A DNA stretch of 38,085 nucleotides from Dysgonamonadaceae bacterium. GTDB taxonomy: Bacteria; Bacteroidota; Bacteroidia; Bacteroidales; Azobacteroidaceae. The notes below the pieces were generated by a model. The model had not been told where the DNA came from. It worked only from the letters and a program-made list of their open reading frames with translations, and did no database searches. Position 1 is the first letter of the stretch; every line of letters begins with the position of its first letter. The translations under genes and the position numbers were made by a program. Positions 3,972 to 25,370 of the stretch are shown here, piece by piece. The stretch is taken from positions 1-38,085 of the forward strand of contig JAISWH010000170.1 of NCBI GenBank assembly GCA_031271125.1. The letters run 5' to 3'.

Positions 3972-5453
3972 TCAAGGCATCGCCGGTAAAGACCAACCGC
4001 TACGGTAAGTATGTTTGATCAATTCGGACGCAAATTGTTTGGCAGGAATCGGGTCCGTCCATTCTTTATTGAATGTCGGGTGTCCGTCGTGAATGGAGAA
4101 ACCGTCTTTTTTACAAATTTTGATTTGTTCCTCATCGGTCAGGTTGGTAAATTCCATTTTTTGACCGTTCCAATGAAGTTCTTTGTTCAGGCTTTGCAGA
4201 CGAACAGCCAATACGCCCATCACAACCATTTCGTTGAAAGGACCGGCGTCGCTGAAAGCGGAAGATAACTTGCGACGGCTTTCGGGTGATTCTTTGCAAG
4301 CGCCCACCCAGTCCATTTCGTGGCTGTCGTTGATGCGGCGGCGGAATTGAGGTGCATTCGGTTTGCGGCCGGACAACAACCAGGGGTCGGCTCCGTAGCA
4401 ACCGCAAATCAGTTTGTCCTTCGTTCCATGGAAACAAACGTAACCGCCTTGATGGTTCGGGTTTTGACCGGCAGGCCATCCTTTGGGAAGCATCGGTTTG
4501 ATACCGCCGTCCGTCCAGGTAACTTCGACTTCGGGAAGTCTGATTTTCATTTTTCTCTTCGGAGTTCTTGCCGGGAATGTCAGGGAAACGGATTGTGCCA
4601 CAGGAGCGCAATCTTCAAGCAACAGCGTTGAGTTGCCTTGTACTTTGGTCGGATAACCTAATTCCAGACCCATGAATACCGGATGTAAGATGTGGCAAGC
4701 CATATCGCCGAGTGCGCCGGTGCCGAAATCCCACCAACCGCGCCAATTCCACGGGTGATAGATTGCGTTGTAAGGACGCATTTTAGCAGGTCCGATAAAC
4801 AAATCCCAATCCAGATATTCGGGCACCCAGTGTCCCTGTTCGGGATTGTTCAATCCCTGCGGCCAGATCGGGCGGTCGGTAAATGTTTCGACTTTCGTTA
4901 TTTCACCGATTTCGCCGTTGGCAATCCATTCGCAGACGAGGTTGACGCCTTCGCCCGATGCACCTTGATTACCCATTTGTGTGGCTACTTTGTATTTGTC
5001 GGCCAGACGGGTTAACAAACGGGATTCATACACCGAGTGTGTCAACGGTTTTTGCACATAAACGTGTTTCCCTAAAGTGATGCCGGTGGCTGCAACAATC
5101 GCATGGGTATGGTCGGCTGTCGCCACAATAACCGCGTCGATTGATTTGCCCGCTTCATCGTACATTTTCCGCCAGTCTTTGTATTGCTTGGCTCTGGGAT
5201 GTTCTTCGAATGTTTTTTTTGCATATTTCCAATCCACATCGCACAGGGCAACAATATTTTCCGAACCTTTTACGACACCGATATTGGCACGTCCCATACC
5301 ACCGATACCAACAGCGGCGATATTCAGTTTATCACTCGGCGCTGTTTGGCCACTAAATTTTTTACCCATGGCTACGCTCGGAATAATCGTCATTCCGATA
5401 GCTGCCATACCGCTTTTTTGAAGAAAAGATCTTCTTGACATTGAGTTTGACAT
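3972..5453 (-). CDS. Gfo/Idh/MocA family oxidoreductase with Tat signal
   Basis: This is an NAD(P)-dependent sugar dehydrogenase-type protein of 493 residues. The start MSNSMSRRSFLQKSGMAAIG is a twin-arginine signal, so the protein is exported folded, probably with its cofactor bound. The Rossmann motif follows as NIAAVGIGGMGRANIGVVKG, and the family lysine motif appears as VYVQKPLTHSVYESRLL (EKP in many relatives, QKP here). The C-terminal half is the typical Gfo/Idh substrate domain of the larger Bacteroidota/Planctomycetes subgroup. Its own Bacteroides-type promoter lies upstream, and the DUF1080 lipoprotein gene follows in the same direction. The substrate cannot be read from the sequence; a periplasmic glycoside is the likely target. 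Confidence 0.9.
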   Translation of the reverse strand: MSNSMSRRSFLQKSGMAAIGMTIIPSVAMGKKFSGQTAPSDKLNIAAVGIGGMGRANIGVVKGSENIVALCDVDWKYAKKTFEEHPRAKQYKDWRKMYDEAGKSIDAVIVATADHTHAIVAATGITLGKHVYVQKPLTHSVYESRLLTRLADKYKVATQMGNQGASGEGVNLVCEWIANGEIGEITKVETFTDRPIWPQGLNNPEQGHWVPEYLDWDLFIGPAKMRPYNAIYHPWNWRGWWDFGTGALGDMACHILHPVFMGLELGYPTKVQGNSTLLLEDCAPVAQSVSLTFPARTPKRKMKIRLPEVEVTWTDGGIKPMLPKGWPAGQNPNHQGGYVCFHGTKDKLICGCYGADPWLLSGRKPNAPQFRRRINDSHEMDWVGACKESPESRRKLSSAFSDAGPFNEMVVMGVLAVRLQSLNKELHWNGQKMEFTNLTDEEQIKICKKDGFSIHDGHPTFNKEWTDPIPAKQFASELIKHTYRSGWSLPAMP

Positions 5454-8785: not shown

Positions 8786-11221
8786 TCAAATTATGCGATA
8801 CCTGTTTTTACTATTAAGAACCCGTAAACCTTTGAGACTGAAAGAAAACTCCCATTCATCGGGCGTTTTTTCTATTTTCAGCAATATCCGGTTTTTACCG
8901 GGTATCAGTTTCAAGGGACATTGAAATTCATCAACAAGTAAATGGGTGTTATTTCGCTCCTGAAATACAAGCGATCCGTTGAGGAATACCGTAATACCCT
9001 TGCTCGTTCCGATGTTAGCGACGACCGTCTGTTCGCCGGATGATTCCAAAGTGCAAAACGCATAAGCGATAGCCTTTTTTCCGGTATCCAAAACAGTATT
9101 CAATGAAACTTTGTCCGACAAGGGGGAAGCATATTTTATCCATTTGATGTTTTTCCCTTTGTGATCGAAAGAAAAACCGGGAAAAGGCGAAGCTGTCCGC
9201 TCACCGCCCATGCCTTGCAAAAAATCGAAACCGGCGTCTTGTGTATTCTCTAACGGAAAGGCCGGCGAAATCAACCAATACGTGAAATATACTTCATTCA
9301 TCGGGCGAATGTCGAGCCGGATATCCGCAGGGGCAGCCAAAGGAAAACCTTGCTCAAAATAACGGAAGGATTTTTCAAATGAACGAATCACATCGTCATA
9401 TTCATTCAAAACTTTCTCAAAAGGATCCATCGCATAATCGTGCCAATAGTCGCGATTCTCCCGTTTCCAGATTGTGTCGAAAGCATTTTTTAATTCGCTG
9501 AATTTCAACCTGCAATAGCGTATATTTTCCTCCGCATTTGCCAATAAGTTACGAGCTTCATCTTTGTTTTCAAATTGAATGCAACAGGATCCGGCGTAAA
9601 GCGCGGCGGCCTCAGCCATCTTTAATTTGGCCTGAGACAAGTATTTATATTCATCCGAAACAATCCGGAAAGCTTCGTATTCACGTTGGTAAGGCCCGGC
9701 TGATTTCCGGTTAAGGATAGAATCAACTTCCAGACAGGTTTCATACAATGTTTCCCAATCCGACAAACCGTAACGGACAAACTTCCCTCTTTCGGGGATG
9801 ATTGTTTTCCAAAAGATTAATTCATTCATATTGTCGATAGCCGGTATTTCTCCCATCTCCGTTAATTTATGAATGGCTGCAAAAAGCGCTTCGCCTTCGC
9901 CGCCATAGATACCGGCCGATAAGCGGACGTCAAAGTCTTCAACAGGTTCAGTATTGGGATTCCAGGACTGTTCCGCACCATAGGCCACTCCGTACCAGTC
10001 GCGGTCGAAAGTATGCAGCCCGCCATCATCCCAAACGGTATTCAACACGCCCATAGCGCCTTTTTCCACACCTTCGCGCACGAAATTGCGGATATTCGCC
10101 AAGGCTTGGTCATAGTTCGGAAACAAGCGGAGCGAGTTAAGCACCCCCGGACATACCATAAAATCAAACCCTTTTCCGGCAAAAGGCTCAATCCATTTCG
10201 CAAAAGAAGGTTGATCGCCATATTCCCAGGTCATCATCACCGCATCAGACGGCAAAAGCGACAGTGTTTCAGGATGTTGCAATGCGATATCTCCCCACAT
10301 CATCATCCGCTTCCGGTTGTTGCGAAGAAGACCGGCCAACGTGTTCATATAACCGGCATACAAACGGGCTATACCTATACTGTCCGCCAGGGATTTGGAA
10401 GGTCCCCGTCCCAAATCAAAAGTTTCGTCACAATTTACATGAAAAAAATCCGAAGCAAAGGCCGGACACATTTCATCGTATATATCTTTCAGAAACAGAA
10501 CGGTTTCCGGATTCACGGGCGAGTACATACCGTTGCTTTCCGCCAGATGACGATATTTCGGATTAAGCAATACCTTTTCGGCATGTCCGAGCGATTGGAA
10601 GTTCGGCACCAATTCGATGTAATGCGCTTCGGCATAATCTCCTATCTCTTTCCATTCTTCGATAGTAATACCACCATGCGGCGGTGCAAATCCGGGATGT
10701 TTTTGTGTCTGTACAATGTGTTCCGTATAATAACACAGCATATTTAATTTCAATTCCGCCATTCGCCTGATTTGGTATTTCATATATTCTTTGGAAGGAA
10801 CAGGTCCGCGGCTGATATCATCCATGACGCCCCGGTACTTACAGGCAGGTCTGTCAATAATATGCAAACCCGGCAAACGATTATTTCGTGAAGCGCGAAT
10901 CAGTTGAATCAGTGATTGTTTCCCGTAGAAAAGACCTCGTTCGGTATGTGCGGACAGCACGATTTTAACTTTGCTAATCAGCAATTCATATCCTTCCTCC
11001 CCAAAATCCTGCTTTCGGTTCCTGTCTACAATATTTATATGGAAAGATGGTATTCCGGGTAATTTTTCTTCCATCAATTTCTTTTCATAGTCAATATTTT
11101 TCGACAAAACAAAAACGTCTCCCGTGTGCTTTACGTGATAAGGCAACGGAACAATATCCACAGCCCACAAATTGCAGTAGATTATGCTCAAAAGTAAGAA
11201 ATAAGCGAATCGTTTTTTCAT
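8786..11221 (-). CDS. GH20 beta-N-acetylhexosaminidase, secreted, with C-terminal accessory domain
   Basis: GH20 enzymes release terminal GlcNAc or GalNAc by substrate-assisted catalysis. I take the ATG at 11221 (MKKRFAYFLLLSIIYCNLWA), which opens a signal peptide 7 bp after the upstream stop; the track start at 11269 would add 16 residues and overlap the previous gene. The 811-residue protein has an N-terminal GH20b-like alpha/beta domain (about 20-125), then the TIM barrel with FHVNCDETFDLG, whose Asp-Glu pair (about D265/E266) is the catalytic pair. Barrel motifs YRGVMDDISRGP and MTWEYGD are also visible. The C-terminal about 180 residues form an all-beta domain with VFLNGSLVF, similar to part of the beta-helix/GH105 protein encoded just upstream. 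It is the last gene of the seven-gene operon and probably trims hexosamine ends from imported oligosaccharides. Confidence 0.88.
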   Translation of the reverse strand: MKKRFAYFLLLSIIYCNLWAVDIVPLPYHVKHTGDVFVLSKNIDYEKKLMEEKLPGIPSFHINIVDRNRKQDFGEEGYELLISKVKIVLSAHTERGLFYGKQSLIQLIRASRNNRLPGLHIIDRPACKYRGVMDDISRGPVPSKEYMKYQIRRMAELKLNMLCYYTEHIVQTQKHPGFAPPHGGITIEEWKEIGDYAEAHYIELVPNFQSLGHAEKVLLNPKYRHLAESNGMYSPVNPETVLFLKDIYDEMCPAFASDFFHVNCDETFDLGRGPSKSLADSIGIARLYAGYMNTLAGLLRNNRKRMMMWGDIALQHPETLSLLPSDAVMMTWEYGDQPSFAKWIEPFAGKGFDFMVCPGVLNSLRLFPNYDQALANIRNFVREGVEKGAMGVLNTVWDDGGLHTFDRDWYGVAYGAEQSWNPNTEPVEDFDVRLSAGIYGGEGEALFAAIHKLTEMGEIPAIDNMNELIFWKTIIPERGKFVRYGLSDWETLYETCLEVDSILNRKSAGPYQREYEAFRIVSDEYKYLSQAKLKMAEAAALYAGSCCIQFENKDEARNLLANAEENIRYCRLKFSELKNAFDTIWKRENRDYWHDYAMDPFEKVLNEYDDVIRSFEKSFRYFEQGFPLAAPADIRLDIRPMNEVYFTYWLISPAFPLENTQDAGFDFLQGMGGERTASPFPGFSFDHKGKNIKWIKYASPLSDKVSLNTVLDTGKKAIAYAFCTLESSGEQTVVANIGTSKGITVFLNGSLVFQERNNTHLLVDEFQCPLKLIPGKNRILLKIEKTPDEWEFSFSLKGLRVLNSKNRYRII

Positions 11222-11228
11222 CTGTGCA

Positions 11229-14200
11229 TCATTTATTTTCAATCGGGGATAAATACATTTCAGCGGCAAGGGTCAAGACTGCACCCAACCCTCGCGGATC
11301 GTTTTCCGATGTTTTCTGATTCAAATAATAACCGGCATCCGGCGATAATTCCGTACTTCGGCAAATACCGCTCACATTTCCTTTTTCGTCGATCTGCCGG
11401 CATATAACATTCCAAGCGCGGTTGAGTCGCAAAGAATAATCTTTTGATAACCAACCCATCCGGATAGCCCGCGCCAAACCAATAGCAAACATGGCTGTTC
11501 CGGATGTTTCCAAAAAGGAAGCGGGATGATCCAATATTTGACGCCACCTGCCGTCTTCCGATTGGTAAACCGAAATGGCTTTCAGCCGCCGGATAAAAAT
11601 TTCTTTTACTTTTTCGTAATCTGTGTGTGTGGAAGGTATTTGCAAAAGCGCTTCCGACATTGCCCAAATAATCCATCCGTTGGCGCGCGACCAGGCGACC
11701 GGGGCTAAAGTCTGTGTGTCGTCAAACCAACCGTGTTTATATATATTCGTTTGCGGATCGGCCAGATGTTTGTCAAAAAGAAGAATCTGCCGGATGGCTT
11801 CGTCATATAGTTTAGCGTCGTGATTGAGCGTAGCCATCCGCACCAGAAACGGAACAGACATGAACAAATCGTCGGCCCATACGGTATGCTCGACCGGTTC
11901 GGGACGGCAAAGCGTTCCATCGGTCAAACGAGACTGTTTATGAAGCACATAATCCAACGTACGGTTCAAAATATCCGACGATAAACTGTCCGGCCGGTTC
12001 ATCAGAGCCATTTCCGCAAAAGGGAGTATGGCGCCGCCCGTATCGTCCAGCATCGTCGCCCGGAACAACCGGAAATAAGCGCCCCGCATGATCCTTTTCG
12101 AAAAATATTGTTCCTTGAAAAAGTCGTAGTTATCAATCACCGATTGGTTGTACATTTCGACAAAACGTTTGTACCGGTAGTCGCCATACGCATGATACAA
12201 ATTGAGGATGCCAAGTAGCGTATTCGAATTGGCATAATGCCAATCGGCATTGAATCCTTTCTTATTTGTTTGGAAATGCGGGACGACAAATGCTTGCCGA
12301 ATCATCGGTTTCCACTCGCGAATTGCAACCTCCGTATCATATAATCTGTCGGGCTTCAGTACGCAACAGGAAAAAGTAACACCTTTCATTCCTTCCGTAC
12401 CTTCCACCAACAATTCATTTTCACCTTTCCGTAACTCAATATTTTGCTCATTGGCAAACCGAAACCTGTTATAAGCATATTCCCGGAAATCTTCCTTCCC
12501 GGACATCCCTGAATAAATAAGTTTTTTATTCAAAAAAACCCGGATATTCCCTTTGAAAGAAAAGCCTAACAGGGCTGATTTTTCATTTTCCGAATAGATA
12601 ATAATACTACCGGACAAAGAGTCAATATCCAAATGGGCAACATTTGCATTGAATGTAACTTCTTGAGGCTCAAAATCAAATGTAGTAGTAGCCATTAAAT
12701 GATCCGCTATTTTCCGGCTTATTTCCCGGATTTGTTCTGCTTTGGAAACGGGAGCCGAAGGAAGCGCCGAAGCCCAGAAAGTCATTTCTTCCCCGTTGGT
12801 TCCTTTCGGTTTTTGGCGAGTGGCGAGTGAAATATTTTCGAGCGGCATCGTTTGAGCAGCTTCTAAAACCAACAAATATCCGTCTTCCTGCAAAGTATGG
12901 CGGTGAAAAGAGATGGAATTTCCCATGCTATTCAAACAGAAATTTTCAGCTTGTATGCTTGCAGGGGCTAACGGATAAGAAAACCATAGTTTTAAACGCT
13001 TATTCTCTATCTTATACCGTACAATACGCGGTTTTTCCTTATCCGGCATTTCTATTCCCGGATCTTCGTAACGAAAAGGCGGACCTTCCACCAAACAACC
13101 ATCATCGTAAGCTCCGATATCCAATTTTTCACCGGTGAAACCAATGGGTATATTTTCGGGAATGATACCCTTGTTCCGGCAAGGCGATCCCTCTTTCAAT
13201 AAAAAATTTCCATGCTTTCCATCAAGAAACATAGGATCCGAAGCAATTTCAGGATACTTGGCCTGTTGAACAATCCGGCCCGGAAACGGGATATTTGCGC
13301 AGTCATTTTCAAACCTGTTGTCAAGCCCCGAATAATAAATGCCTACCGTATCTGCATTGGAAATAAAATACGCATTGTTGAAATGATAGATATGATCATT
13401 ATGCCAATGATTTTCCTGTTTGCGGCCTAAAATATCGGAATCTACCTGCCAACTGTTATTGAAAATATACAAGGGTTTCGTCATTCGCCTTTCTTTACCC
13501 ATGAACTTAAAAACAGTCCATCCGTCCCGGCAATCAGGCAGTTTAACACCGGTATTCCCATAAAACCATAACGGTCCCCCTCCTACTTCCGTTACGGAAA
13601 TGAAAGCATGACTATTTATCATTTTATTGTGGTAAAAATGAAGATTTTTGCAATAAACCTCCGGTTCAAAAGCATTATCGGCGCTATTTTCAATTACATT
13701 CCGATAAATTTCGCCATTGGTGCAAGCCAGGGTATCCAATCCGGTTGTTTCATCCATGACCGAAAGCCGGATTCCGTTATAGACATTTTTTATATAATTA
13801 TCCCGAATAACAAAAGAGCCGCCGATTTGTTTCCCCTGAAACAAACTTCCGTTGTAATACCGGTATTGGCCATGATGCAATTCCGCCCAGGAATATTCTT
13901 TTTCTTTTTTCCATACATGCTCGCCTTGCTCCCAATAGCACTGCTCAATAAGAAAATGATGACTGTTTCTGCCTTCGGCAAAAAAAGCCCGCCTTCCACC
14001 TGTTATATGGGAGTGAGTCAAGGAAATATAACCGGAATTTTTCACGCGGATCACATCCAGCCAACAATTCCGGAAAGAAAACTGTGAAACCGTAATCCAC
14101 GAACAGTTATCGAAATAAAAGCCGTATTTATCCATCTCTGTTCCTGGTTTTTCCGCTCCACCGTCCAGAATCGTATTGCCGCGGTCTTCCCCCATGATAA

Positions 14201-14429
14201 CAACCGGATTATCGGGCAATCCGTGTTTATCCCGCATCAGTAGATTCATCCGGTAATGCCCTTTCCTGAAAAAAACAGTATCGCCGGCCTGCGCCTCTTT
14301 CAAATAACGATTAACCGTTTTTTCCGGCATTTTGTCCGTCACAAAAACACATTTGGCACAGATCGATTGAACAGACAGCATAAAAAACAGCAATGTCAAT
14401 CCGAATCTTATTTTTTGCATAGCTCTCAT
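11229..14429 (-). CDS. Fusion of right-handed beta-helix (lyase-like) and GH105 unsaturated uronyl hydrolase
   Basis: This is a 1066-residue secreted protein with three parts. After the signal peptide (MQKIRFGLTLLFFMLSVQSICA) comes a right-handed parallel beta-helix (about 27-440): it begins like PL6/chondroitinase-B proteins (AGDTVFFRKGHYR), carries repeated IRVKN/IRDNYIKN/IYRNVIENS rungs, and ends with SPCRNKG and LDIGAYDDG. A beta-rich linker (about 450-690) includes RVFLNKKLIYSG. The C-terminal (alpha/alpha)6 domain (about 690-1060) has the GH105/GH88 signatures HTVWADDLFMSVPFL (acid near 853), WSRANGW, and LETSGTAMF. GH105 enzymes remove the 4,5-unsaturated uronic acid that lyases create, so a lyase-like helix joined to the next enzyme in the pathway makes sense. 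The helix family is not certain. The ATG at 14420 is an equally good start. Confidence 0.83.
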   Translation of the reverse strand: MRAMQKIRFGLTLLFFMLSVQSICAKCVFVTDKMPEKTVNRYLKEAQAGDTVFFRKGHYRMNLLMRDKHGLPDNPVVIMGEDRGNTILDGGAEKPGTEMDKYGFYFDNCSWITVSQFSFRNCWLDVIRVKNSGYISLTHSHITGGRRAFFAEGRNSHHFLIEQCYWEQGEHVWKKEKEYSWAELHHGQYRYYNGSLFQGKQIGGSFVIRDNYIKNVYNGIRLSVMDETTGLDTLACTNGEIYRNVIENSADNAFEPEVYCKNLHFYHNKMINSHAFISVTEVGGGPLWFYGNTGVKLPDCRDGWTVFKFMGKERRMTKPLYIFNNSWQVDSDILGRKQENHWHNDHIYHFNNAYFISNADTVGIYYSGLDNRFENDCANIPFPGRIVQQAKYPEIASDPMFLDGKHGNFLLKEGSPCRNKGIIPENIPIGFTGEKLDIGAYDDGCLVEGPPFRYEDPGIEMPDKEKPRIVRYKIENKRLKLWFSYPLAPASIQAENFCLNSMGNSISFHRHTLQEDGYLLVLEAAQTMPLENISLATRQKPKGTNGEEMTFWASALPSAPVSKAEQIREISRKIADHLMATTTFDFEPQEVTFNANVAHLDIDSLSGSIIIYSENEKSALLGFSFKGNIRVFLNKKLIYSGMSGKEDFREYAYNRFRFANEQNIELRKGENELLVEGTEGMKGVTFSCCVLKPDRLYDTEVAIREWKPMIRQAFVVPHFQTNKKGFNADWHYANSNTLLGILNLYHAYGDYRYKRFVEMYNQSVIDNYDFFKEQYFSKRIMRGAYFRLFRATMLDDTGGAILPFAEMALMNRPDSLSSDILNRTLDYVLHKQSRLTDGTLCRPEPVEHTVWADDLFMSVPFLVRMATLNHDAKLYDEAIRQILLFDKHLADPQTNIYKHGWFDDTQTLAPVAWSRANGWIIWAMSEALLQIPSTHTDYEKVKEIFIRRLKAISVYQSEDGRWRQILDHPASFLETSGTAMFAIGLARAIRMGWLSKDYSLRLNRAWNVICRQIDEKGNVSGICRSTELSPDAGYYLNQKTSENDPRGLGAVLTLAAEMYLSPIENK

Positions 14430-14440
14430 TTCTTTATCAA

Positions 14441-16309
14441 TTACAGGATTTTAATAATCAACCGGACAGTTTGCCTGATATCGGAAGTATCGTTCCTGAT
14501 ATTCAGCCCGACAGGATAAGCCTGTAAAGCCGGGTACGGGAAACGATATTCGGAAGCATCCTTTCCAAGTTCCAATTCCACTTTACCGGAAACAACATGT
14601 ATTTCGATCTGTTTATTCCGGGCGCGAATGGAAACGGTTCTTTCATCTGTTTGGATAAAAGACATTCCGGGATAATAAATGATTGGTTCTACAATCCTAA
14701 CCCGATCGTTTGCATCGTGATAAAACAACTCTATTTCCTTGCATAAAGCACTGTCTGTAAATTCATAACTTATGCGATAAGCGATGCCCCCTTCCTGTTG
14801 TTTGCTGTTTTTTAATTCGCCGAAGCAGTTGACGGTATAAATCCCGGATACGTCGCTGTATGTCAGATGAGCGTCGAACTCGTACAAATTTGTAAAATAA
14901 CCCGATGGGTTTGTAAATTCTATTCGCGGCGTCAAAGGTTTTGTATCAGGCATTTCCGGGAAACTCATCGGCTCCCATCTTTTATAAATGGTTTGCGAAG
15001 AAGCCTGAAAATAACCGTGATCTTTAAGCCACAGGTTACAGATTGAACCGCCGGTCGGCCGGTGCATGTATTTACTTTTTTCACCGGCGGGATCTTTATA
15101 GGTATATGCGGAAATCGTCGAACACCATTCGGCTGTCCGGAGCGTTACCACATTTAATGTAGGAAAATAGCGAATCCCCTTTTGCTCCGAAGGAAGAGGC
15201 GCTGATATTCCTTCATCAGCCCGCATAAACGCAATAGCCATCGCTATATTCTTCGCTTTGGCAAAAGTCGGGTATATGCAAGGCGGACTCTCAAAAATAT
15301 CAAAATATAAGGGGCCGAATCCTACAATTCCATCACGCATACAGGTACGCAAATATTGGATATTTTTAATAGCCGCCCTCCGGTATTGATCGTTTTTATC
15401 CATAAACAAGCTGAATAACAGGATACTCCCATCAGAGGTACCGCTACCGAAACAAGTCCATTTGTTGGATCGTATTCCCCAGGAAGCATCCAAAGAACCG
15501 TCGGGATAGACAAAAGGCAAATGCTTTTCCAAGGATTTTTCCACACATTCATATACCTCTTTATCATTGGCAAGAAGCGCATACAGGGTTAATCCCCATA
15601 ACGACATTTCCATATTGTAACCCAAATCTACTCCGTACTTCACGCCAAAGACACGGCCTCCTTCACCCGTTAAAAAATAATCGGGGTCCATCTTGGCAAT
15701 TACCCGGTGCGCAAGTTCCCGCGCTTTCACCCGGTAAGATTCCTTGCTTATCAACCGGTCTACAAACAAAAGTGTAGTCGTAGTCGTTGCACAATAATTG
15801 ATACTTGCAAATTGCGGAGACATGACACGTTCGAGATAATCGCCGGCCTTTTCAATCGCCCGCAACCATTTATCGGATTCTCTTTTTGTCAAATGAGGCC
15901 GCAATATCGGATAAGCCAATGCCATCATTAGGGCCTGATCGGTCGTCGTTCCCGTCCATTCTTCCGGCGTTTCGGGCCAGGCGCCGGAATCCTGTTGTTG
16001 CTTAATCAACCAGTTCCCAACATCAATCGCTGCCCGCAAATACACTTTATTTCCCGTATGCTGAAATTCAAATGCAAACGGATAAACCGCTTCAGCCGCC
16101 CGGGTGTGATAAAGCCGGCAATGCGGACATCCAACCGCTCCGTAATCCCCCGATTGCTTATCCGTTTGAATCTGTCGCAAAAGCGCCGCATTTAAATCAG
16201 ATAACATTTCCCAGGCATGTACACTCAGTTTATCAATCATTTGTGTACATGCAGGGAAAGTCGAAAGAAAAAACATACTTACTATACAAAAGAAAGTCTT
16301 CAAGTACAT
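14441..16309 (-). CDS. Secreted alpha/alpha-toroid plus beta-sandwich protein, putative polysaccharide lyase or hydrolase (unassigned)
   Basis: I do not recognise a named family with confidence. The 622-residue protein starts with a signal peptide (MYLKTFFCIVSMFFLSTFPAC); the cysteine could be lipidated, though the box is not classic. Residues about 25-360 consist of helical hairpins with repeated Trp/Tyr-rich turns (YHTRAAEAVYPFAFEF, LGYNMEMSLWGLTLYALL, YPDGSLDASWGIRSNKWT), as in (alpha/alpha)-toroid lyases and glycosidases. Residues about 390-620 are beta-rich, as in the C-terminal sandwich of heparinase- and hyaluronate-lyase-like enzymes. It lies between the hexuronate transporter gene (3 bp away) and the beta-helix/GH105 gene (11 bp away), so a depolymerising role, perhaps lyase, is likely. 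Alternatives are an epimerase-like or GH88-like hydrolase. Confidence 0.6.
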   Translation of the reverse strand: MYLKTFFCIVSMFFLSTFPACTQMIDKLSVHAWEMLSDLNAALLRQIQTDKQSGDYGAVGCPHCRLYHTRAAEAVYPFAFEFQHTGNKVYLRAAIDVGNWLIKQQQDSGAWPETPEEWTGTTTDQALMMALAYPILRPHLTKRESDKWLRAIEKAGDYLERVMSPQFASINYCATTTTTLLFVDRLISKESYRVKARELAHRVIAKMDPDYFLTGEGGRVFGVKYGVDLGYNMEMSLWGLTLYALLANDKEVYECVEKSLEKHLPFVYPDGSLDASWGIRSNKWTCFGSGTSDGSILLFSLFMDKNDQYRRAAIKNIQYLRTCMRDGIVGFGPLYFDIFESPPCIYPTFAKAKNIAMAIAFMRADEGISAPLPSEQKGIRYFPTLNVVTLRTAEWCSTISAYTYKDPAGEKSKYMHRPTGGSICNLWLKDHGYFQASSQTIYKRWEPMSFPEMPDTKPLTPRIEFTNPSGYFTNLYEFDAHLTYSDVSGIYTVNCFGELKNSKQQEGGIAYRISYEFTDSALCKEIELFYHDANDRVRIVEPIIYYPGMSFIQTDERTVSIRARNKQIEIHVVSGKVELELGKDASEYRFPYPALQAYPVGLNIRNDTSDIRQTVRLIIKIL

Positions 16310-16312
16310 AAT

Positions 16313-17740
16313 TTACAAATCCGTAATAGGAGCATACCGGGGAACCAGGGCTTTCATTACCACCCATCCGAGAAGATGCGATACCGCACAAATCGAAAAG
16401 ATAATAAAATAACCGGCTTCCACTCCTTTGAAACCCATGAACAACATTTGTGTCTGTTCGGCATAATCAAACAAAACGCCCGATGATTTATTAATAATAA
16501 ATGCACCGATTCCACCACTCATACCGCCTATGCCGATAATTGTCGCTATCGCTTTTTGCGGAAACATATCTCCTACGGTAGAAAAAATATTCGCCGACCA
16601 AGCCTGATGTCCCACAATGGCAATGCCGATGGATACGATGGGCAACCAATAAGAAATATGTCCCAAAGGTTGAGCCAGCAATGCAACCAACAGGAAAAAG
16701 GCAAAGATAAGCATTGTCTTCATTCGCCCGTCGTACGGATTCATTCCTTTTTTATCGACAAAGTAAGAAGGTAGCCAACCGCCGATAATCGAAAATAAAG
16801 ATATGAAATAGAGCACAAAAATGGCTAATTGTCCCTTGGGATCGGACGATTTAATGCCATATACCGAACTCAGATAGGCTGGCGTCCAAAACAAGAAAAA
16901 GAACCACACGCCATCCGTCAGGAATTTTCCCAAAGCAAAAGCCCAAGTCTGCCGGTAGCAAAAACAACGCCGGAAAGAAGTCTTTTCCTTTATCGCTTTA
17001 ATTTCCGGTTTATCCGAATCCTGTTGTATATATGCCAATTCATTTGGATTGACTTTCGGATTCGATTCCGGTTTCTTATAGACAAACAACCAGATTCCCA
17101 TCCAAATAAATCCGAGTGCGCCGATAACAAAAAAAGCCATTTCCCACCCCCAAACCTTTGCAATCAGGGGAATGGAAAGAGGGGCTAACAACGCGCCGAT
17201 AATGGAACCGGTATCGAAAAGGCTTGTCGCCAGCGCACGGTCTTTTTTGGGAAAATATTCTGCCGTCGCTTTAATGGCAGCCGGATAATTTCCCGATTCT
17301 CCCAGCGCGAGAATAATACGTGCAAAAATGAACAAAACGACGCTGACATTCGTAACAAGTGCAACATTTTTAGCCAAACCGATGGCTTCCCGTGCGCCGG
17401 CAAATCCGACAAACCACTCATGAGTAACAATGCCGGAGGTCGCAATGCCGCAAAATCCGTGTAAACAAGCTCCAACCGACCACACGCCTATTGCGCAAAG
17501 AAAACCTTTTTTCGTATCCAGTTTATCGACAAGGCGTCCTGCAAACAACATACATACGGCATACACAATAGAGAAAATCGCTGTAATATTGCCATAATGA
17601 TTATTGCTCCAATGAAATTCGGGCGCTATGAAATCTTTCCACGTCAGGGAAAGCACTTGTTTATCCAAGTAATTTATCATAGTTGCGAAAAACAACATAC
17701 AACAGACGCCCCATCTGAAATTTGTTTTCTTGTTATTCAT
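16313..17740 (-). CDS. MFS transporter, hexuronate:cation symporter (ExuT) type
   Basis: This is an inner-membrane carrier of the anion:cation symporter branch of the major facilitator superfamily, whose members import hexuronates and other sugar acids. The 475 residues begin with the family-typical first helix RWGVCCMLFFATMINYLDKQVLSL and show about twelve hydrophobic segments. The loop between helices 2 and 3 contains GRLVDKLDTKKG (MFS signature), and ALGESGNYPAAIKATAEYFPKKDRALATSLFDTG is the strongly conserved ExuT-type segment in the first half. The gene is 15 bp downstream of the TonB-dependent receptor gene and 3 bp upstream of the toroid protein. This supports uronic acid (or an unsaturated uronate product) as one component of the substrate. 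The exact substrate is not readable. Confidence 0.87.
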   Translation of the reverse strand: MNNKKTNFRWGVCCMLFFATMINYLDKQVLSLTWKDFIAPEFHWSNNHYGNITAIFSIVYAVCMLFAGRLVDKLDTKKGFLCAIGVWSVGACLHGFCGIATSGIVTHEWFVGFAGAREAIGLAKNVALVTNVSVVLFIFARIILALGESGNYPAAIKATAEYFPKKDRALATSLFDTGSIIGALLAPLSIPLIAKVWGWEMAFFVIGALGFIWMGIWLFVYKKPESNPKVNPNELAYIQQDSDKPEIKAIKEKTSFRRCFCYRQTWAFALGKFLTDGVWFFFLFWTPAYLSSVYGIKSSDPKGQLAIFVLYFISLFSIIGGWLPSYFVDKKGMNPYDGRMKTMLIFAFFLLVALLAQPLGHISYWLPIVSIGIAIVGHQAWSANIFSTVGDMFPQKAIATIIGIGGMSGGIGAFIINKSSGVLFDYAEQTQMLFMGFKGVEAGYFIIFSICAVSHLLGWVVMKALVPRYAPITDL

Positions 17741-17755
17741 TCGATCGAACTTGTA

Positions 17756-20686
17756 TCAGAATCTGTAAACCAAACCGGTACGGCAATTTATTCCGTTGTA
17801 TTGCAAGGAATAAACCCTGTTTTTATTTCCAAAATAATTGTAATATTCGTTGTCAAGTACATTGACAACTTCAATCCAGAATGTCAAATCTTTGTAAATT
17901 TTAACCGACCCATTGATATCCAATTGCCAGCGACCGTCCTGCCAGATATCGCGTTCCGAATTAGCTCCCAAAGCGACAATATAAGAACCGTTATAGTTTG
18001 ATGAAGCCTGAATCGTCAATAACTTCGTCGAATAAGCCAAAGCAAAATTCGCGCTGTGTTCGGCTTGTCCCGGAAGGCGCGTTTTACCTCTGCTGATATC
18101 GGTTGTTGCATCGGAATGAACATATGTATAATTGCTGGTAAACACCAGGTTCTTCAAATACGACGGCAAAAACGTAAGACTGGAATTGAGCGTAAGTTCA
18201 AGGCCATATACCTTAGCGGCGTCGCCGTTTTTAGTCTGGATGATTTGCCATTCGTTGTAACTGCTTGTAGGATCATTGATAATACCTTCGCTCAGATATT
18301 GAAAATCGGCGATATGTTTATAAAATACACCTCCGGAAATAAGCCCTACATTAGAAAGATATTGTTCGAAAAGCAAATCGAAATTATTGGAATAAGCGGC
18401 TTTCAAATCCGGATTCCCTACGGTTACACGTTCCAAATCCTGGGAAATATCCTGTTTCGGGACGATGTCGGTCACATTAGGTCGCGAATACCCGGTCGTC
18501 CATGCCAGACGGAAAATAGATTTGTCCGTCAGGTCATACTTGAATTGAAGATTCGGCAACAGCTTCGTATAATTTGTCGTTTTACTCACCGGTGTTGATG
18601 TAAAATCATTAAACAAACTCGGATCATCATTTTGAACAGGCGCATTGGGATTTACAAAGCGATCAATTCTGTTGGCTTTATATTTAACCGTCGTATGCTC
18701 TACCCGCAAGCCTGCAAGCATCATCAGTTTGTCGAATTGAATTTTGTTCATGATGTAGGTTGCCGTAACATCTTCCTGAGCATCGTAATAGAACAATTCA
18801 ATCGCCGCTTTCGAGAAATAGTCATTGCGAACTATGTCTCCGGCATTGGCAGGATTTGCCAAGTATTGATGAACTTTATCCATATCCGGTAATATGCCGA
18901 AAAGAATTTTTTTATGCAAAAAATCAGGAACGGAAAAGTTGTTGTTGATCATATTGCCGAGATTATTCGCTTCACTCGAATTGAAACTATAAGTCCATGT
19001 ATTGTCGGGTACATGTCCCGAATTATCCATAAATTTTCCCTTTACACCAAAGGAAAGCGTAGAAGCATAATCTTTTATAAAATAATTCTTCGACACATTC
19101 AGCCTGGCGGTAAAACTTTCCCCGCCGGTAATGGCATTGTTATTTTCTATTGTATATAAATTAAACCGGGAAACCGCGTCGGGAATTTCCGTTCCCATCG
19201 CTCCGGTAGGCGTATAGATATACTTGGAAGTCAAATACTTGGAATTAATATCCGGTACGACGCCGACAATAGTGCCTTTGGGTATCGTCACTCCATTCAC
19301 CTTTTTTCCGGCCCTCCATTCGGGATTTTGGAATCCTACCATTTCGCTGACATAATCGCGATTAGACTTTGTATAAAAAAGTCCGCCATCGATTTTCCAA
19401 TCGCCGAAAGTCGTTTCTCCGTCAAGATTAATATTTAAGTTGTCAATCTTTTCATTTTGAGTTGATACCTGCGTGATATTCCTCATTCTTTCCGAACCGA
19501 TTGAGCCGTCTTCAAGCAGTGCATAACCGGAGCCGTTGTCACGGAAACGCGTCCTGTTCCGGTAACGTATATCGTCATTTTTCCGAAGGTTATAGACCGT
19601 ACTCAGAACAAACTTTGTGTTTTTGGTCGGCGCCCAATCCAATGCGGCCGTCATCCCCTGGCGTTTGGATTCCCGGGACTGATAACGATAACGGAAATCG
19701 GTCGGCATGTATGCATCTTCCGAAATGACATTGCCCGAACTTTTTTCGGTCAGCGTATAAGGTTCCCACGCTTGCGCTTCCAGGCGGTCGTATCCGTTAT
19801 TTGTTCTGAGGAAACTATAATTGGCTGTGAAACCTAAAGTTCCGTCCGGATTCTTTTCCGTTGGGAAAAAACGTTGAGCATATCCGGCTTTTGCATTGTA
19901 AATAACCTTCTCCCTTAATCCGTTGTACCCGCTTCCCAAATCAATGGAAAAACGGGGCTTAAGCGTGCGGGCGGTACTGGTTCGCATATTGATTACACCG
20001 GAAATGGCGTCCCCATCGTTAGAAGGAAGCAAAGTCTTCTGAACCTCCAAAGAAGAAAGAATATCCGAAGGAATCACGTCCAAAGCTTCGTTTCGCCGGC
20101 CGTCTTCCTGGCTACCCATAATTTGTTCGCCGTTCACATTGATATTGGTAAAATTCGCAGGCGTACCGCGTAACTGAACATTTGTCCCGTCGGTCGTTAC
20201 CCCGCCGAGCCGTTTCAAAGCATCCGATACATTCGGGTCGGGAAACCGGCCGATTTGGTCGGCCGAAATCACCTGCAACATATTGTCAGCCATTTTTTGC
20301 TGGTTCAAAGCACGTTGTTGTCCGCCGACAATGGTAGAAATGACCACTTCTTTGATTGATAAAGTGTTTTCGTCAAGTTCAAAATTCAGAATCACATTCT
20401 TGTCGGCAATAATCCGTACTTTTTGGACTACCGTCACAAATCCCAGATAATTGACTTCAATTTCAACTTCCCCTGCAGGAATACCCCGAAGAATATAACT
20501 GCCTTCCAAGTCCGTGGCAACTCCTAATGTCGTGTTTTTCACGGTAATAGCAGCTCCCGGCAATGTCGCTCCAGTATTGTCTTTCACAATTCCGGACAGA
20601 TTTCCTTTACCTTGCGCATAAGAAGACGTGACAAGCCCAAAACTCATCACAATAACTGATAACAATAGAAAAAAACAGTTTCTCAT
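17756..20686 (-). CDS. TonB-dependent outer-membrane receptor (TIGR01782-like) with N-terminal carboxypeptidase-regulatory-like domain
   Basis: This 976-residue protein has a signal peptide (MRNCFFLLLSVIVMSFGLVTSSYAQ), a CarboxypepD_reg-like domain (about 28-110, GIVKDNTGATLPGAAITVKN), a plug domain, and a beta-barrel ending in GLVYRF with the terminal aromatic typical of barrel insertion. The plug carries RFPDPNVSDALKRLGGV, LRGTPANFTNINVNGE and SNDGDAISGVINM. This series resembles the Xanthomonas/Caulobacter-type receptors (TIGR01782) more than SusC. No susD gene is next to it; its neighbours are nagB-like (14 bp upstream) and exuT-like. It presumably imports oligosaccharides produced by the locus enzymes, powered by TonB-ExbBD encoded elsewhere. 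Confidence 0.88.
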   Translation of the reverse strand: MRNCFFLLLSVIVMSFGLVTSSYAQGKGNLSGIVKDNTGATLPGAAITVKNTTLGVATDLEGSYILRGIPAGEVEIEVNYLGFVTVVQKVRIIADKNVILNFELDENTLSIKEVVISTIVGGQQRALNQQKMADNMLQVISADQIGRFPDPNVSDALKRLGGVTTDGTNVQLRGTPANFTNINVNGEQIMGSQEDGRRNEALDVIPSDILSSLEVQKTLLPSNDGDAISGVINMRTSTARTLKPRFSIDLGSGYNGLREKVIYNAKAGYAQRFFPTEKNPDGTLGFTANYSFLRTNNGYDRLEAQAWEPYTLTEKSSGNVISEDAYMPTDFRYRYQSRESKRQGMTAALDWAPTKNTKFVLSTVYNLRKNDDIRYRNRTRFRDNGSGYALLEDGSIGSERMRNITQVSTQNEKIDNLNINLDGETTFGDWKIDGGLFYTKSNRDYVSEMVGFQNPEWRAGKKVNGVTIPKGTIVGVVPDINSKYLTSKYIYTPTGAMGTEIPDAVSRFNLYTIENNNAITGGESFTARLNVSKNYFIKDYASTLSFGVKGKFMDNSGHVPDNTWTYSFNSSEANNLGNMINNNFSVPDFLHKKILFGILPDMDKVHQYLANPANAGDIVRNDYFSKAAIELFYYDAQEDVTATYIMNKIQFDKLMMLAGLRVEHTTVKYKANRIDRFVNPNAPVQNDDPSLFNDFTSTPVSKTTNYTKLLPNLQFKYDLTDKSIFRLAWTTGYSRPNVTDIVPKQDISQDLERVTVGNPDLKAAYSNNFDLLFEQYLSNVGLISGGVFYKHIADFQYLSEGIINDPTSSYNEWQIIQTKNGDAAKVYGLELTLNSSLTFLPSYLKNLVFTSNYTYVHSDATTDISRGKTRLPGQAEHSANFALAYSTKLLTIQASSNYNGSYIVALGANSERDIWQDGRWQLDINGSVKIYKDLTFWIEVVNVLDNEYYNYFGNKNRVYSLQYNGINCRTGLVYRF

Positions 20687-20700
20687 AAACCACTTAAATT

Positions 20701-21477
20701 TTAAAGTTTTAACAATTTTGCAGCATCTATATCTAAAAAAAGCGTTACATTCGGATGTCTCCGAAGTATAGAAGCCGGACAGGTTTCGGAAACCGGTCCG
20801 TAGATCATATCATAAACAGCTTTCGCTTTACGTTCGGTCGGAACAATCCCAACAATGTACCTGCACGACATCAGTGCAGGAATGGTGAGTGTCAGCGCCT
20901 GACGCGGAACTTCATTTATGCCGGAAAATTCGCCGTCGTTTACTTGCTGTTGCCGGCATATATCATCAAGTGTCGTTTCCCTTACCCAGCGGGGATCCGT
21001 AAAGCTCGCCTCATGCGGATCGTTAAACGCAATATGCCCGTTTTCGCCGATACCCAAACTGACAATATCCAGCGAGGCTTCCTTTAATAAAGCTTCATAA
21101 CGGGCACATTCCGCCGAAATATCATCCGCATCGGATTGCACATAATTGACCTTTCGGAACGGTCTTTTGGAAAAAATCGCTTTCCTGAGAAAATTCCCGA
21201 AATTTTGCGGCGCATCCTTCCCCAGACTCATGTATTCATCCATGTGGAAAGCCTCAATCCGGTCAAAATCAATATCATTGTCTTGCGAGAGTATTTCCAG
21301 AAAGTCATTTTGGGAACGTGCGGCTGCAAAAACAGAGCGGATAAACGCCTGTTTTTCCAGCATCCGTTGTACGTGAGATTTGTAGCAATGATAAGCCGCC
21401 AACCCCATTCCGGCCCGGGAACCGTACACGTAAACTTGTAATTCGTCGATTTTAAAACTTTGAATAGCTTGATTCAT
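20701..21477 (-). CDS. NagB-family amino-sugar 6-phosphate deaminase/isomerase (variant active site)
   Basis: Members convert glucosamine 6-phosphate to fructose 6-phosphate and ammonia in the cytoplasm. The 258-residue length fits. Two family motifs are visible: FHMDEYMSLG, with the proton-transfer Asp, and LGIGENGHIAFNDPHEASF. In E. coli NagB the second motif is GNDGHIAFNEP. Here the base Asp is Asn, which is seen in some other NagB proteins, the His is kept, and the Glu is Asp. The gene overlaps the upstream GH28 gene by 4 bp (ATGA), so they are translationally coupled. Galactosamine-6-phosphate isomerase activity (AgaI-type, same superfamily) is a real alternative. Its presence shows that the imported glycan contains an amino sugar. 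No deacetylase (NagA) or kinase gene is in the window. Confidence 0.82.
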   Translation of the reverse strand: MNQAIQSFKIDELQVYVYGSRAGMGLAAYHCYKSHVQRMLEKQAFIRSVFAAARSQNDFLEILSQDNDIDFDRIEAFHMDEYMSLGKDAPQNFGNFLRKAIFSKRPFRKVNYVQSDADDISAECARYEALLKEASLDIVSLGIGENGHIAFNDPHEASFTDPRWVRETTLDDICRQQQVNDGEFSGINEVPRQALTLTIPALMSCRYIVGIVPTERKAKAVYDMIYGPVSETCPASILRRHPNVTLFLDIDAAKLLKL

Positions 21478-24104
21478 TTCTGTGTATTATTATATTTTAG
21501 TTGATAATAAGCAGATAAGAAACGAAGTCCGAACGAAGTTCCTACATCCCTGTGTGTAAGCCAGATAGACCCGTTTTTCATACGCATACGCGTGTTTACG
21601 ACGCCGCTCCTGAGATTGGGATCGGAATGATCGACAGCATAACGATTGTTTAAAATCCAATGCACACTGCGTTCTACAGCCGGAAGAAATTCCGGATACC
21701 CATAACCGGCTAAACGAATCCATACAATACCGGCAAAGGCTACCGCCGATCCGCAAATCGAACCTTTGTCGGATGGTTTTCCATCTGTGTAATTCACATA
21801 ATAAATAGTGCCGTCTTTCTTTTGCGCTTTCATATAAGTACGCGCAGTGATTGCCGCCGCTTCGAGATATTTCCGGTCTTTCGTCAATTCGTAGGCTTCC
21901 AGCAAAGACTCGGCATACCATAAATTAAAACGAGGATGGAACGATGCATCTTCCTGATGATTAGGCATGTAACGCATCCAAATCCCATCCTTATCCTGTT
22001 TTTCAATCAAGGAATTACACAGAAGGATATGGGCGTCTTTAAATTTCCTTTCGTGTGTAAATTCATAAGCATCTTTGAATGGCGAGCCTTCCGTATTCGG
22101 ACGGGAAACATCTTCCAAGGTCTGCGATTCCTTATCTTTATAAAAGGGACTGTTTTCTTTCACCACCTCGCCGGTCTTCAGGTCTACCAAGTCGTAGCAT
22201 ACGCCTTTTTCCGGATAATACATATTTTCCAATAACCAGCGCGACGACGAAACGGCTACTTTTGCGTATTTCATATCGCCTGTGACACGGCTTAATTCAT
22301 AGACGCCCGGCAAACCGTCGGAAGTCGTGGCAAACACAATACAGTCGTTCCCTATGACATCCCCATGCGTGGCGGCAACCATTCCTTTGAAGCGGGGATT
22401 ATCTTTGATTTCCAAGTTAATCCACCAGTCGCCGGCTCTTTTAGCAGCGGCCAAAGCTCGCTTGTTCCCGCTTACTTTGTAGCCTTCCAGCAAACCCAGA
22501 ATCAATTGCCCCGTATGCCACGGTTCTTCGTAAGGATACCATTTTCCGTCAATTGTATTATAATCGCAACGGGATTTCCCATCGTCGTCCAACAATACAT
22601 TCGAAGCATAGTCGATACATTCGTTAATTGCCTTCAAAAGCTCATCCGCTTCGGGGGTTTGAGCCTGTAGCGGCAAAATAGAAACAGTAGAATTTTTAAG
22701 CGTTTTGACTGTTCCGGAACCTTTCGCTCCGTAGACCGATATATCCCGGATACTCCCTTCCTGCACATCATCGCAGACAATAGCCGGACGGCTATCAGCC
22801 GCTTGAAGCTCAAAAGAAAGCCCTTGTAAATAAATATGGTTTGCGTGCCGGACGTATAAACCGAATGCCGGTAAGAGGCCAAACATCGTGGATTCCGGAT
22901 AAAGCTCCGGAAGTTCTTCAACCCGTTTCCCGCTAAAATCATCGCTTACATTGCCGGGACAAAAGAAACGAATATTCGTCAAGCTAACTCCTTCTATTTT
23001 ACCTTCGGGAATACCGCTGATACTGCAACCGACAGGCGAAGAGGCTTTAGCTATAATATTGCTCAACAGGATGTTGCGCATTTTCCCTACGGAAGGTTCC
23101 GGCGCCTCGTCAAAATGTTTGCGCGCCCGGTTGCCCAAACGTATAAATATAGGTACGCGCGGCCCGTCGATACTGATGTTGGAAATTACAACATTTTCCA
23201 TAATTCCGCCATCAACCATTTCCAAGGCAAGGCCGCATATCCCTTCGGGAAATCCGGTTAGCGCCGTCGTATGGGCAGACTTCCGAATCACGCAATTGCT
23301 GATCGTAATGTTACGAAAACCGGCGGTTGTTTCCGTCCCGAACTTAATCGCATTGCAATGGCTACTGATCACACAATCCGAAACGACGATATTCTCGCTT
23401 ATCCTGTCCGAAGTGCTTTTGAATGTAATCCCGTCATCGTCGGCATCCCCGACAACACCGGTAATCACAACATCTTTACATCCGTCGATATCCATCAAAT
23501 CATTGTTTTTATTCGAATGATTATAGACTTTAATTCCCTCAATCCTCAGATTTTCGCACCGGATATAGGACTGCATCCACATGGCGGAATTTCTCAATTC
23601 TATGTCGCGGATACATACATTTTTACATCCGGCAACCCATAGTAAATAGGGACGGTTACGGTAACGGTCGGGCTTCACCGTTGTTTTTACCGGAAAAGCG
23701 CTTCCACGGCCATCAATGATTCCTTGTCCTTCTATCGTAATATTATTGACATGATGGGCAATAATCAACGAACGGTCCACCCAGGTATCTCCATAAAAAC
23801 GAAAGTCGACTTTTGTCTGCGGATAATCCGCCAGGTCGGTGGAACCCAGCAGACAAGCATTTTTTTCGAGCAGTATACCGGTGTTTTCTTTCAGGAAAAG
23901 CGTACCGGTAACGAAATTCCCGGCAGGAATTACAACCCGGCCTCCTTGCTTCGAACTTTCATCTATCGCAGCCTGAATGGCAGCCGTACACACTGTATGA
24001 CCATCGGCAACAGCTCCATAAGAGGTGATATTGTAATCAGCAGCTGTTACAAAATTCACTTGAAACATACAAATTCCAAACAGAAATTGCAGCATTTTTT
24101 CCAT
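21474..24104 (-). CDS. GH28 polygalacturonase-family enzyme fused to an alpha/alpha-toroid domain
   Basis: This is an 876-residue secreted protein (signal about 1-22, ending VTAAD). Residues about 22-470 are a right-handed beta-helix of the GH28 type: YNITSYGAVADGHTVCTAAIQAAIDE at the start, GRVVIPAGNFVTGTLFLKENT, NNDLMDIDGCKDV, DADDDGITFKS (paired Asp), and SHCNAIKFGTETTAGFRNI in place of the usual GHG...RIK region. GH28 enzymes hydrolyse galacturonan-type bonds; the variant C-terminal motif suggests a different uronide or exo-acting specificity. Residues about 485-870 form a helical toroid with repeated WW and aromatic turns (YEEPWHTGQLILGLLEGYK, FNLWYAESLLEAYEL), similar to six-hairpin glycosidases, GlcA epimerases or lyases. 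It is the first gene of the operon, about 110 bp from the predicted promoter. Confidence 0.85.
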   Translation of the reverse strand: MEKMLQFLFGICMFQVNFVTAADYNITSYGAVADGHTVCTAAIQAAIDESSKQGGRVVIPAGNFVTGTLFLKENTGILLEKNACLLGSTDLADYPQTKVDFRFYGDTWVDRSLIIAHHVNNITIEGQGIIDGRGSAFPVKTTVKPDRYRNRPYLLWVAGCKNVCIRDIELRNSAMWMQSYIRCENLRIEGIKVYNHSNKNNDLMDIDGCKDVVITGVVGDADDDGITFKSTSDRISENIVVSDCVISSHCNAIKFGTETTAGFRNITISNCVIRKSAHTTALTGFPEGICGLALEMVDGGIMENVVISNISIDGPRVPIFIRLGNRARKHFDEAPEPSVGKMRNILLSNIIAKASSPVGCSISGIPEGKIEGVSLTNIRFFCPGNVSDDFSGKRVEELPELYPESTMFGLLPAFGLYVRHANHIYLQGLSFELQAADSRPAIVCDDVQEGSIRDISVYGAKGSGTVKTLKNSTVSILPLQAQTPEADELLKAINECIDYASNVLLDDDGKSRCDYNTIDGKWYPYEEPWHTGQLILGLLEGYKVSGNKRALAAAKRAGDWWINLEIKDNPRFKGMVAATHGDVIGNDCIVFATTSDGLPGVYELSRVTGDMKYAKVAVSSSRWLLENMYYPEKGVCYDLVDLKTGEVVKENSPFYKDKESQTLEDVSRPNTEGSPFKDAYEFTHERKFKDAHILLCNSLIEKQDKDGIWMRYMPNHQEDASFHPRFNLWYAESLLEAYELTKDRKYLEAAAITARTYMKAQKKDGTIYYVNYTDGKPSDKGSICGSAVAFAGIVWIRLAGYGYPEFLPAVERSVHWILNNRYAVDHSDPNLRSGVVNTRMRMKNGSIWLTHRDVGTSFGLRFLSAYYQLKYNNTQK

Positions 24105-24262: not shown

Positions 24263-24293
24263 TTGCACAATTTGCAAAATAACTCTATATTTG
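24263..24293 (+). promoter_or_regulatory. Promoter of the LacI-type regulator gene
   Basis: TTGC at 24263-24266 and TATATTTG at 24286-24293 are 19 nt apart, a good Bacteroides-type promoter. The TTG used by the ORF track as a start (24291) lies inside the -7 element and cannot be in the mRNA. This settles the true start as the ATG at 24318. The promoter is back to back with that of the large operon. Confidence 0.6.
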
Positions 24294-24317
24294 CAGCATA
24301 AATGCAAGGATAGTGAA

Positions 24318-25370
24318 ATGGCAAAAAAAAACAGAATAAAAGATATTGCCGAATTAGCCGGCGTTTCGGTTGGGACAGTCGATCGTATTATCCATAACCG
24401 GGGAGACGTTTCGCTCGGTAGCCGTGTGAAAGTTGAAAAAGTTTTAGCGGAAATAAACTATTCGGATCGTTTATCCACTTATCTACCTGAATATAAAGGT
24501 CAGGTCAAACTGTTGATTATATTGCCCCAGCACACGTCCGGAGAATATTGGGAATCCATCGAAAAAGGGATTAACACAGCCGTACGGGATTTTGCCAATG
24601 TCAAATTGAAAATTAAATATCTGTATTACGACCAGTTTAATTTATATTCCTGCCGGCAAGTTTTTGACGAAGCGCTGACAATCCGGGCGAATGGCGTGAT
24701 CATAGGCCCTTCGTTTTATGACGAAACCGTACTTTTTGCTAATCAGCTTTTCCTGAAAAATATCCCTTATGTCTTTGTAGATACAATAGTCAATAATACC
24801 AAGCCGCTCGCATTTTTCGGACCTCATCCGTTTCAGACCGGCACGGTTCAGGCAAAATTACTTACGACCGTTTTAGAACCCGGAAAAGACATTGTTCTTT
24901 TTCAAGCAAAAAGAATCGGCGATGCAACTTCGGTTCAATCTTTAAGCCGGTCATACGGATTCATGTCGTATCTCAAAGAACATGATCCGGAAATAAAAGT
25001 ATTTTCCGCCTTGTATGACAATGCCGATAAAAACGAAAACAGAAAACTTATGGAACAGTTCTTCGCGGAACATTCCAACATCGGCGGCGCCGTTGTTTTC
25101 GACACAAGAGCATACGTCATAGCGGAATATTTAAAAACACAGAACATACCGCATATCAAACTGATTGGCTACGGAACCGATAAACAAAACATTACCGACC
25201 TGAAAGAGGGCTATATCGACTTCCTGATATCCGAAAGACCCGAATATCAAGGTTATTCGTCAATAAAAGTAATTCTCGAATATTTGTTGTGCAATAAAAC
25301 CGTCAATGTAGAAAATTATACGCCTATTGATATCCTTATTAAAGAAACTGTTGATTTTTATTTGGTTTAA
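24318..25370 (+). CDS. LacI-family transcriptional regulator
   Basis: This is a DNA-binding regulator with an N-terminal helix-turn-helix ([27 protein letters not shown], about residues 4-30) and a periplasmic-binding-protein-like sugar domain (about 60-350). The start is the ATG at 24318 ([13 protein letters not shown], 350 residues), because the track start is inside the promoter. The hinge region lacks the usual long LacI hinge helix sequence but has the [11 protein letters not shown] form common in Bacteroidota members. The ligand-binding half resembles the ribose-binding type ([21 protein letters not shown]). It is divergent from the polysaccharide operon, and the shared 213-bp gap makes it the likely regulator, responding to a sugar or sugar phosphate released by the pathway. 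Its stop overlaps the convergent ilvD stop by 4 bp. Confidence 0.9.

Follow-up and report, generated by a model that had tools for sequence, protein, structure and literature searches.

A rare fusion of a beta-helix domain with a GH105 unsaturated uronyl hydrolase in a Dysgonamonadaceae bacterium

The window analysed here is a stretch of 38,085 nucleotides from a Dysgonamonadaceae bacterium (assembly GCA_031271125.1, contig JAISWH010000170.1); loci in other genomes are denoted by L numbers. The window features an operon in which the genes lie on the minus strand, with no more than about 15 bases between neighbours. In order, these genes encode a fusion of GH28 and a GH127/GH88-like barrel (21474..24104), a NagB/6-phosphogluconolactonase-like protein (20701..21477), a TonB-dependent receptor (17756..20686) with no recognised SusD adjoining, an MFS transporter (16313..17740), for which the nearest NCBIfam model, of the D-galactonate transporter type, scores below cut-off, a 622-residue enzyme-like protein (14441..16309), the fusion protein that is the subject of this report (11229..14429), and a GH20-like enzyme (8786..11269). 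The listed TTG start of the GH20 gene overlaps the fusion gene, and its start is likely close to 11221. A gene encoding a LacI-type regulator (24291..25370, plus strand) is divergent from the operon. The GH28 and barrel halves of the upstream fusion are encoded by separate genes in L025. The window also encodes a glycoside 3-dehydrogenase of the BT_2158 family (3972-5453, minus strand), whose NCBIfam score exceeds the cut-off; near the helix gene in L021 lies a protein related to it at 48%.

The fusion gene is an intact single ORF on the minus strand, which begins with ATG and encodes 1066 residues. An apparent cleavable signal peptide (aa 1-25; 14355..14429), in which no lipobox was seen, was read from the sequence. 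It is followed by a right-handed beta-helix domain (aa 26-445; 13095..14354), recognised by AF2 modelling and by Foldseek matches to GH136 and PL6 proteins, and by an Ig-like domain (aa ~463-560; 12750..13043), which is found likewise in unfused helix genes. Downstream, a beta-sandwich domain (aa ~588-711; 12297..12668) resembles the N-terminal part of the separate GH105 genes of L022 and L028, and precedes a GH105 (alpha/alpha)6 domain (aa 726-1059; 11253..12254) assigned by Pfam, PDB sequence match and fold. The full-length AF2 model has a pLDDT of 87 and a pTM of 0.69. The initial annotation had described a lyase-like beta-helix and a GH105 enzyme joined in one secreted chain. ORF, Pfam and AF2 domains confirm this union, to which the Ig-like and beta-sandwich domains, unmentioned at that stage, must be added. 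With its apparent signal peptide, the protein is read as secreted, and its location is probably periplasmic.

GH105 enzymes remove 4,5-unsaturated uronate residues. Both sequence and fold make the GH105 assignment of the C-terminal half certain, and we take this half to be a real unsaturated uronyl hydrolase. Pfam PF07470 (GH88/GH105) matches aa 726-1059 well above threshold (E=1.3e-69; 235.3 bits, cut-off 26.6). The best match in PDB sequence searches is 3k11 (E=3.8e-48), followed by YteR. The same structures were retrieved by Foldseek with the full-length model, as 3k11 (3.7e-23) and 2gh4 (1.8e-21), the latter being the complex of YteR D143N with unsaturated-GalA-Rha. The motifs WADD (aa 851-854) and WSRANGW (aa 913-919), reported earlier for this half, were both located, and the active-site aspartates are kept. 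D853, within D853-D854 of the WADD motif (11868..11873, minus strand), aligns with D143 of YteR, which is replaced by Asn in 2gh4. D795, within D795-D796 (12042..12047, minus strand), aligns with the second active-site aspartate of YteR, which we take to be D88. Both residues are present in all of the 11 aligned GH105 rows.

The helix half is less readily classified. The Pfam Beta_helix model scores 25.4 bits, under its cut-off of 25.9. An AF2 model of the domain, built on an alignment of 38 homologues, shows a right-handed parallel beta-helix (pLDDT 90.1, pTM 0.92). GH136 lacto-N-biosidases are the top Foldseek matches (E=4.8e-9 and 3.6e-8), PL6 lyases follow (from 1.9e-7), and further matches include PL9 Pel9A, RbmB, GH110, GH87 and PfbA. 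Query-normalised TM scores of ~0.3-0.5 and identities of 10-15% in these matches do not fix the chemistry. D251, N252, E255 and E257 are invariant in 38/38 homologues, a count biased upwards as the DNxxEPE pattern was partly a seed of the genome scan. These residues belong to the motif DNAFEPE (aa 251-257; 13659..13679, minus strand), a putative metal-binding or active-site acid cluster. Lys308 (13506..13508, minus strand), which lies outside both scan seeds, is equally invariant (38/38) and is a candidate catalytic or carboxylate-binding residue. S278 and an asparagine ladder are also invariant.

According to the initial annotation, the helix is PL6/chondroitinase-B-like at its start but not clearly assigned. 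The likeness is indeed confined to the start, as the Pfam Chondroitinas_B match covers aa 37-118 only and reaches 15.8 bits against a cut-off of 24; the model is matched at E<=0.01 by 10 of the 38 homologues. PDB sequence searches with aa 45-155 retrieved PL6 alginate lyases only at E ~0.015. Comparison of the helix profile with collected PL6 sequences gave a probability of 98-99%, but the readable alignment mostly involves the N-terminal cap, a motif common to PL6 and PL9. The collected PL6 sequences read NGExEIISxK...RHG, and PL6 lyases require their Lys and Arg (PMC6879350). An ExE pair, E255 and E257, is invariant in the 38 homologues and is a candidate counterpart of the calcium-site ExE of PL6, with the metal being putative. 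At the position of the catalytic Lys, five residues after ExE, Asn262 is found in 33 of the 38 homologues and Lys in none, and the Arg-His of the next coil is absent from all 38, which feature an invariant Ser278 and Asp, Glu or Thr at position 280. PL6 membership was thus rejected on the sub-cut-off Pfam score and the missing Lys and Arg-His, and the PL6/chondroitinase B affinity does not hold as an identity.

PL9 membership was not supported either: the profile alignment between the helix and PL9 covers the N-terminal cap alone. PL9 lyases combine a DDxxD calcium site with a catalytic Lys; their sequences show NSDDGxD and then NGFK, and the helix has a similar order (DNxxE, then Lys308), in terms of sequence order only. 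The DNxxEPE plus Lys order is therefore reminiscent of metal/Lys beta-helix lyases such as PL9, a resemblance that is unproven. Other catalytic sites exist among beta-helix lyases, as in PsAly, which uses Tyr/Lys and a cation (PMC6796002). Most likely, the helix belongs to an uncharacterised and unclassified beta-helix family. Of the earlier lyase reading, the carbohydrate-enzyme-like beta-helix stands and the PL6 identity falls; lyase chemistry is likely but putative, and the best fold match is a hydrolase, GH136.

Genome contigs of ~85,000 species were scanned with two peptide patterns of the helix family, yielding 63 loci. The same fusion was found in three other genomes, those of Bacteroides oleiciplenus YIT 12058, Dysgonomonas sp. 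BGC7 and the Prevotella MAG SUG954, in which the helix and Ig-like regions are 65, 64 and 52% identical, respectively, to those of the window. As the scan is pattern based, this number is a lower bound; the architecture, a count of which among Bacteroidota had been proposed, is not common. The fusion is real and rare, and its recurrence in three other genomes argues against an assembly artefact. It was found in no other genome among 393 sampled from the order or 48 from the family, and the helix occurs, unfused, in only one (G394) of 396 genomes of the phylum besides the window's own. No relatives were found in viral contigs. Searches of open-licence papers directed at the architecture and at B. 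oleiciplenus revealed none whose title or abstract describes the fusion, and no characterisation of the fused homologues was found.

In L017, L022, L024, L025 and L028, the last of which belongs to Gemmatimonadota, the helix plus Ig-like protein and GH105 are encoded by separate genes of one cluster. The GH105 proteins of these five loci are 42-45% identical to the GH105 of the window, and unlinked ones 25-35%. In trees of both halves, the fused forms make up one clade (support 100/99). The fused GH105s are placed within the group of linked ones; of the unfused helices, that of L021 is the closest. The clade and the placement among linked genes point to one fusion of two genes, and the history reads as a single event joining members of one cluster. 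Since the two genes remain separate in one cluster elsewhere, helix and GH105 probably belong to one sugar-breakdown pathway (a Rosetta-stone link). The earlier proposal that the fusion couples consecutive steps is upheld as to the shared pathway, which the linked genes suggest in another phylum too; a lyase step of the helix is likely but putative. In L022 (7845-11953) and L023 (7851-11683), two helix genes lie in tandem within one cluster, and the second of each pair is extended at the C-terminus. Helix homologues from L032 to L080 derive mostly from Alphaproteobacteria (Rhizobium and the Roseobacter group). No GH105 was found in the fetched neighbourhoods of these loci, and the few alphaproteobacterial helix neighbours scanned are not polysaccharide genes and give no useful functional hint.

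Gene order around the fusion is partly conserved. L018 and L019 keep the succession MFS transporter, 622-residue relative, fusion and GH20, with one extra gene inserted, which encodes GH97 in L018 and, judging from gene position and length, probably also in L019. The 622-residue protein has no above-cut-off match in Pfam or NCBIfam. Relatives at 66% accompany the fusion in L018 and L019, and one at 48% lies in the L024 cluster, where helix and GH105 genes are separate; the protein is possibly the representative of a new enzyme family. Related clusters also carry SSF transporters. A GH2 beta-glucuronidase (PRK10150, above cut-off) is encoded in L017, and GH2 genes are found in L023, L025 and L026; in addition, L025 has a PL22-like gene and L020 a heparinase II/III-like one. 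The GH2, PL22-like and heparinase II/III-like genes point to a substrate with uronates, and cluster content as a whole suggests a glucuronate-containing polymer, perhaps with hexosamine.

We propose that the helix performs an elimination at a uronate and that GH105, as part of one polypeptide with it, clears the resulting unsaturated residue, a reading to which we assign a probability of roughly 0.45. The protein would be a two-step secreted, probably periplasmic enzyme. The helix would cleave a uronic-acid glycan by beta-elimination, using the acidic metal-binding cluster D251, E255 and E257 together with Lys308. The new non-reducing end would carry a 4,5-unsaturated uronate, which the GH105 domain would remove with D853/D795. 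We infer that the helix is catalytic, that it acts by elimination over hydrolysis, and that a metal, the uronate substrate and a periplasmic setting are involved. In favour of a lyase are the fold, which is like those of GH136, PL6, PL9 and RbmB, and the invariant acids and Lys in a PL9-like order. Against it are the absent PL6 Lys and Arg-His, the top fold match to a hydrolase (GH136), and the aligned alphaproteobacterial homologues, which keep the same invariant residues with no GH105 in the fetched neighbourhood. A tentative extension of this reading is that the helix represents a new family of polysaccharide lyases, which has a metal/Lys site of its own and was fused once to a product-removing GH105.

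The GH136 matches would also suit a glycoside hydrolase, GH136-like or of another beta-helix type, that uses two of D251, E255 and E257 and acts beside GH105 on one glycan, once a separate lyase of the pathway has cut it. Matches to GH110 and GH87, the invariant carboxylates, and the GH20 and NagB-like neighbours, which fit a hexosamine-containing substrate, are consistent with such an enzyme. However, the GH136 matches involve 12-13% identity and rmsd values of 7.7-10.6 A. The catalytic aspartates of ErLnb136, D568 and D575, are seven residues apart (PMC7335108), a spacing that is absent in DNxxEPE and, compared by sequence spacing, from the whole invariant set of the helix family. GH136 enzymes also depend on an additional helical part, either a domain or a subunit (PMC8106489), and none was recognised within the fusion chain in the full-length model. 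We regard a hydrolase as rather unlikely.

The missing PL6 catalytic residues, along with the fold match to PfbA, a reminder that beta-helices can be adhesive, would agree with a non-catalytic helix that binds carbohydrate or acts as a scaffold, holding substrate for GH105. Such a role is improbable given the polar cluster and Lys, invariant across phyla, and the stand-alone helix genes that share a cluster with GH105 genes. A helix that dehydrates or epimerises the non-reducing-end uronate, with no chain cut, would likewise make a GH105 substrate. The ulvan oligosaccharide dehydratase P29_PDnc does so, acting upstream of its GH105 (PMC8511951). A secreted chain and a TonB receptor with no recognised SusD might suit oligosaccharides. 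Nevertheless, we know of no beta-helix oligosaccharide dehydratase, and consider this activity quite improbable.

The helix defines an uncharacterised family distributed among Bacteroidota, Gemmatimonadota, Verrucomicrobiota, Chloroflexota MAGs and Alphaproteobacteria, and the link to GH105 suggests a testable role for its Bacteroidota branch. Should the helix be a lyase, as we favour, its site would be a new catalytic arrangement among beta-helix lyases. The fusion would then be a natural enzyme that treats uronate glycans in two steps, coupling elimination to the removal of the unsaturated residue.

Among known systems, YteR and 3k11 (GH105 unsaturated rhamnogalacturonyl/glucuronyl hydrolases) share with the fusion the GH105 fold, the D88/D143-equivalent aspartates and the WSRANGW region, but in the fusion this domain stands after beta-helix, Ig-like and beta-sandwich domains. 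The fused homologues of B. oleiciplenus, Dysgonomonas and Prevotella have the same architecture; L018, and probably L019, differ from the window operon in the GH97 insertion. PL6 enzymes (chondroitinase B and alginate lyases) resemble the helix in the right-handed beta-helix, the cap motif and the ExE pair, and differ in the Lys, replaced by Asn262, in the Arg-His of the next coil and in the Pfam score, which the helix leaves under cut-off. PL9 pectate lyases (Pel9A) similarly combine a beta-helix with an acid cluster (DDGxD, versus DNxxE in the helix) followed by Lys, although this Lys is farther along the chain in the helix and the profiles align only at the cap. GH136 lacto-N-biosidase is closest in overall fold, but differs in catalytic Asp spacing and in the accessory domain, unrecognised in the fusion chain. 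RbmB, a Vibrio polysaccharide lyase, has 11% identity to the helix, yet matches its beta-helix fold with a target-normalised TM of 0.64.
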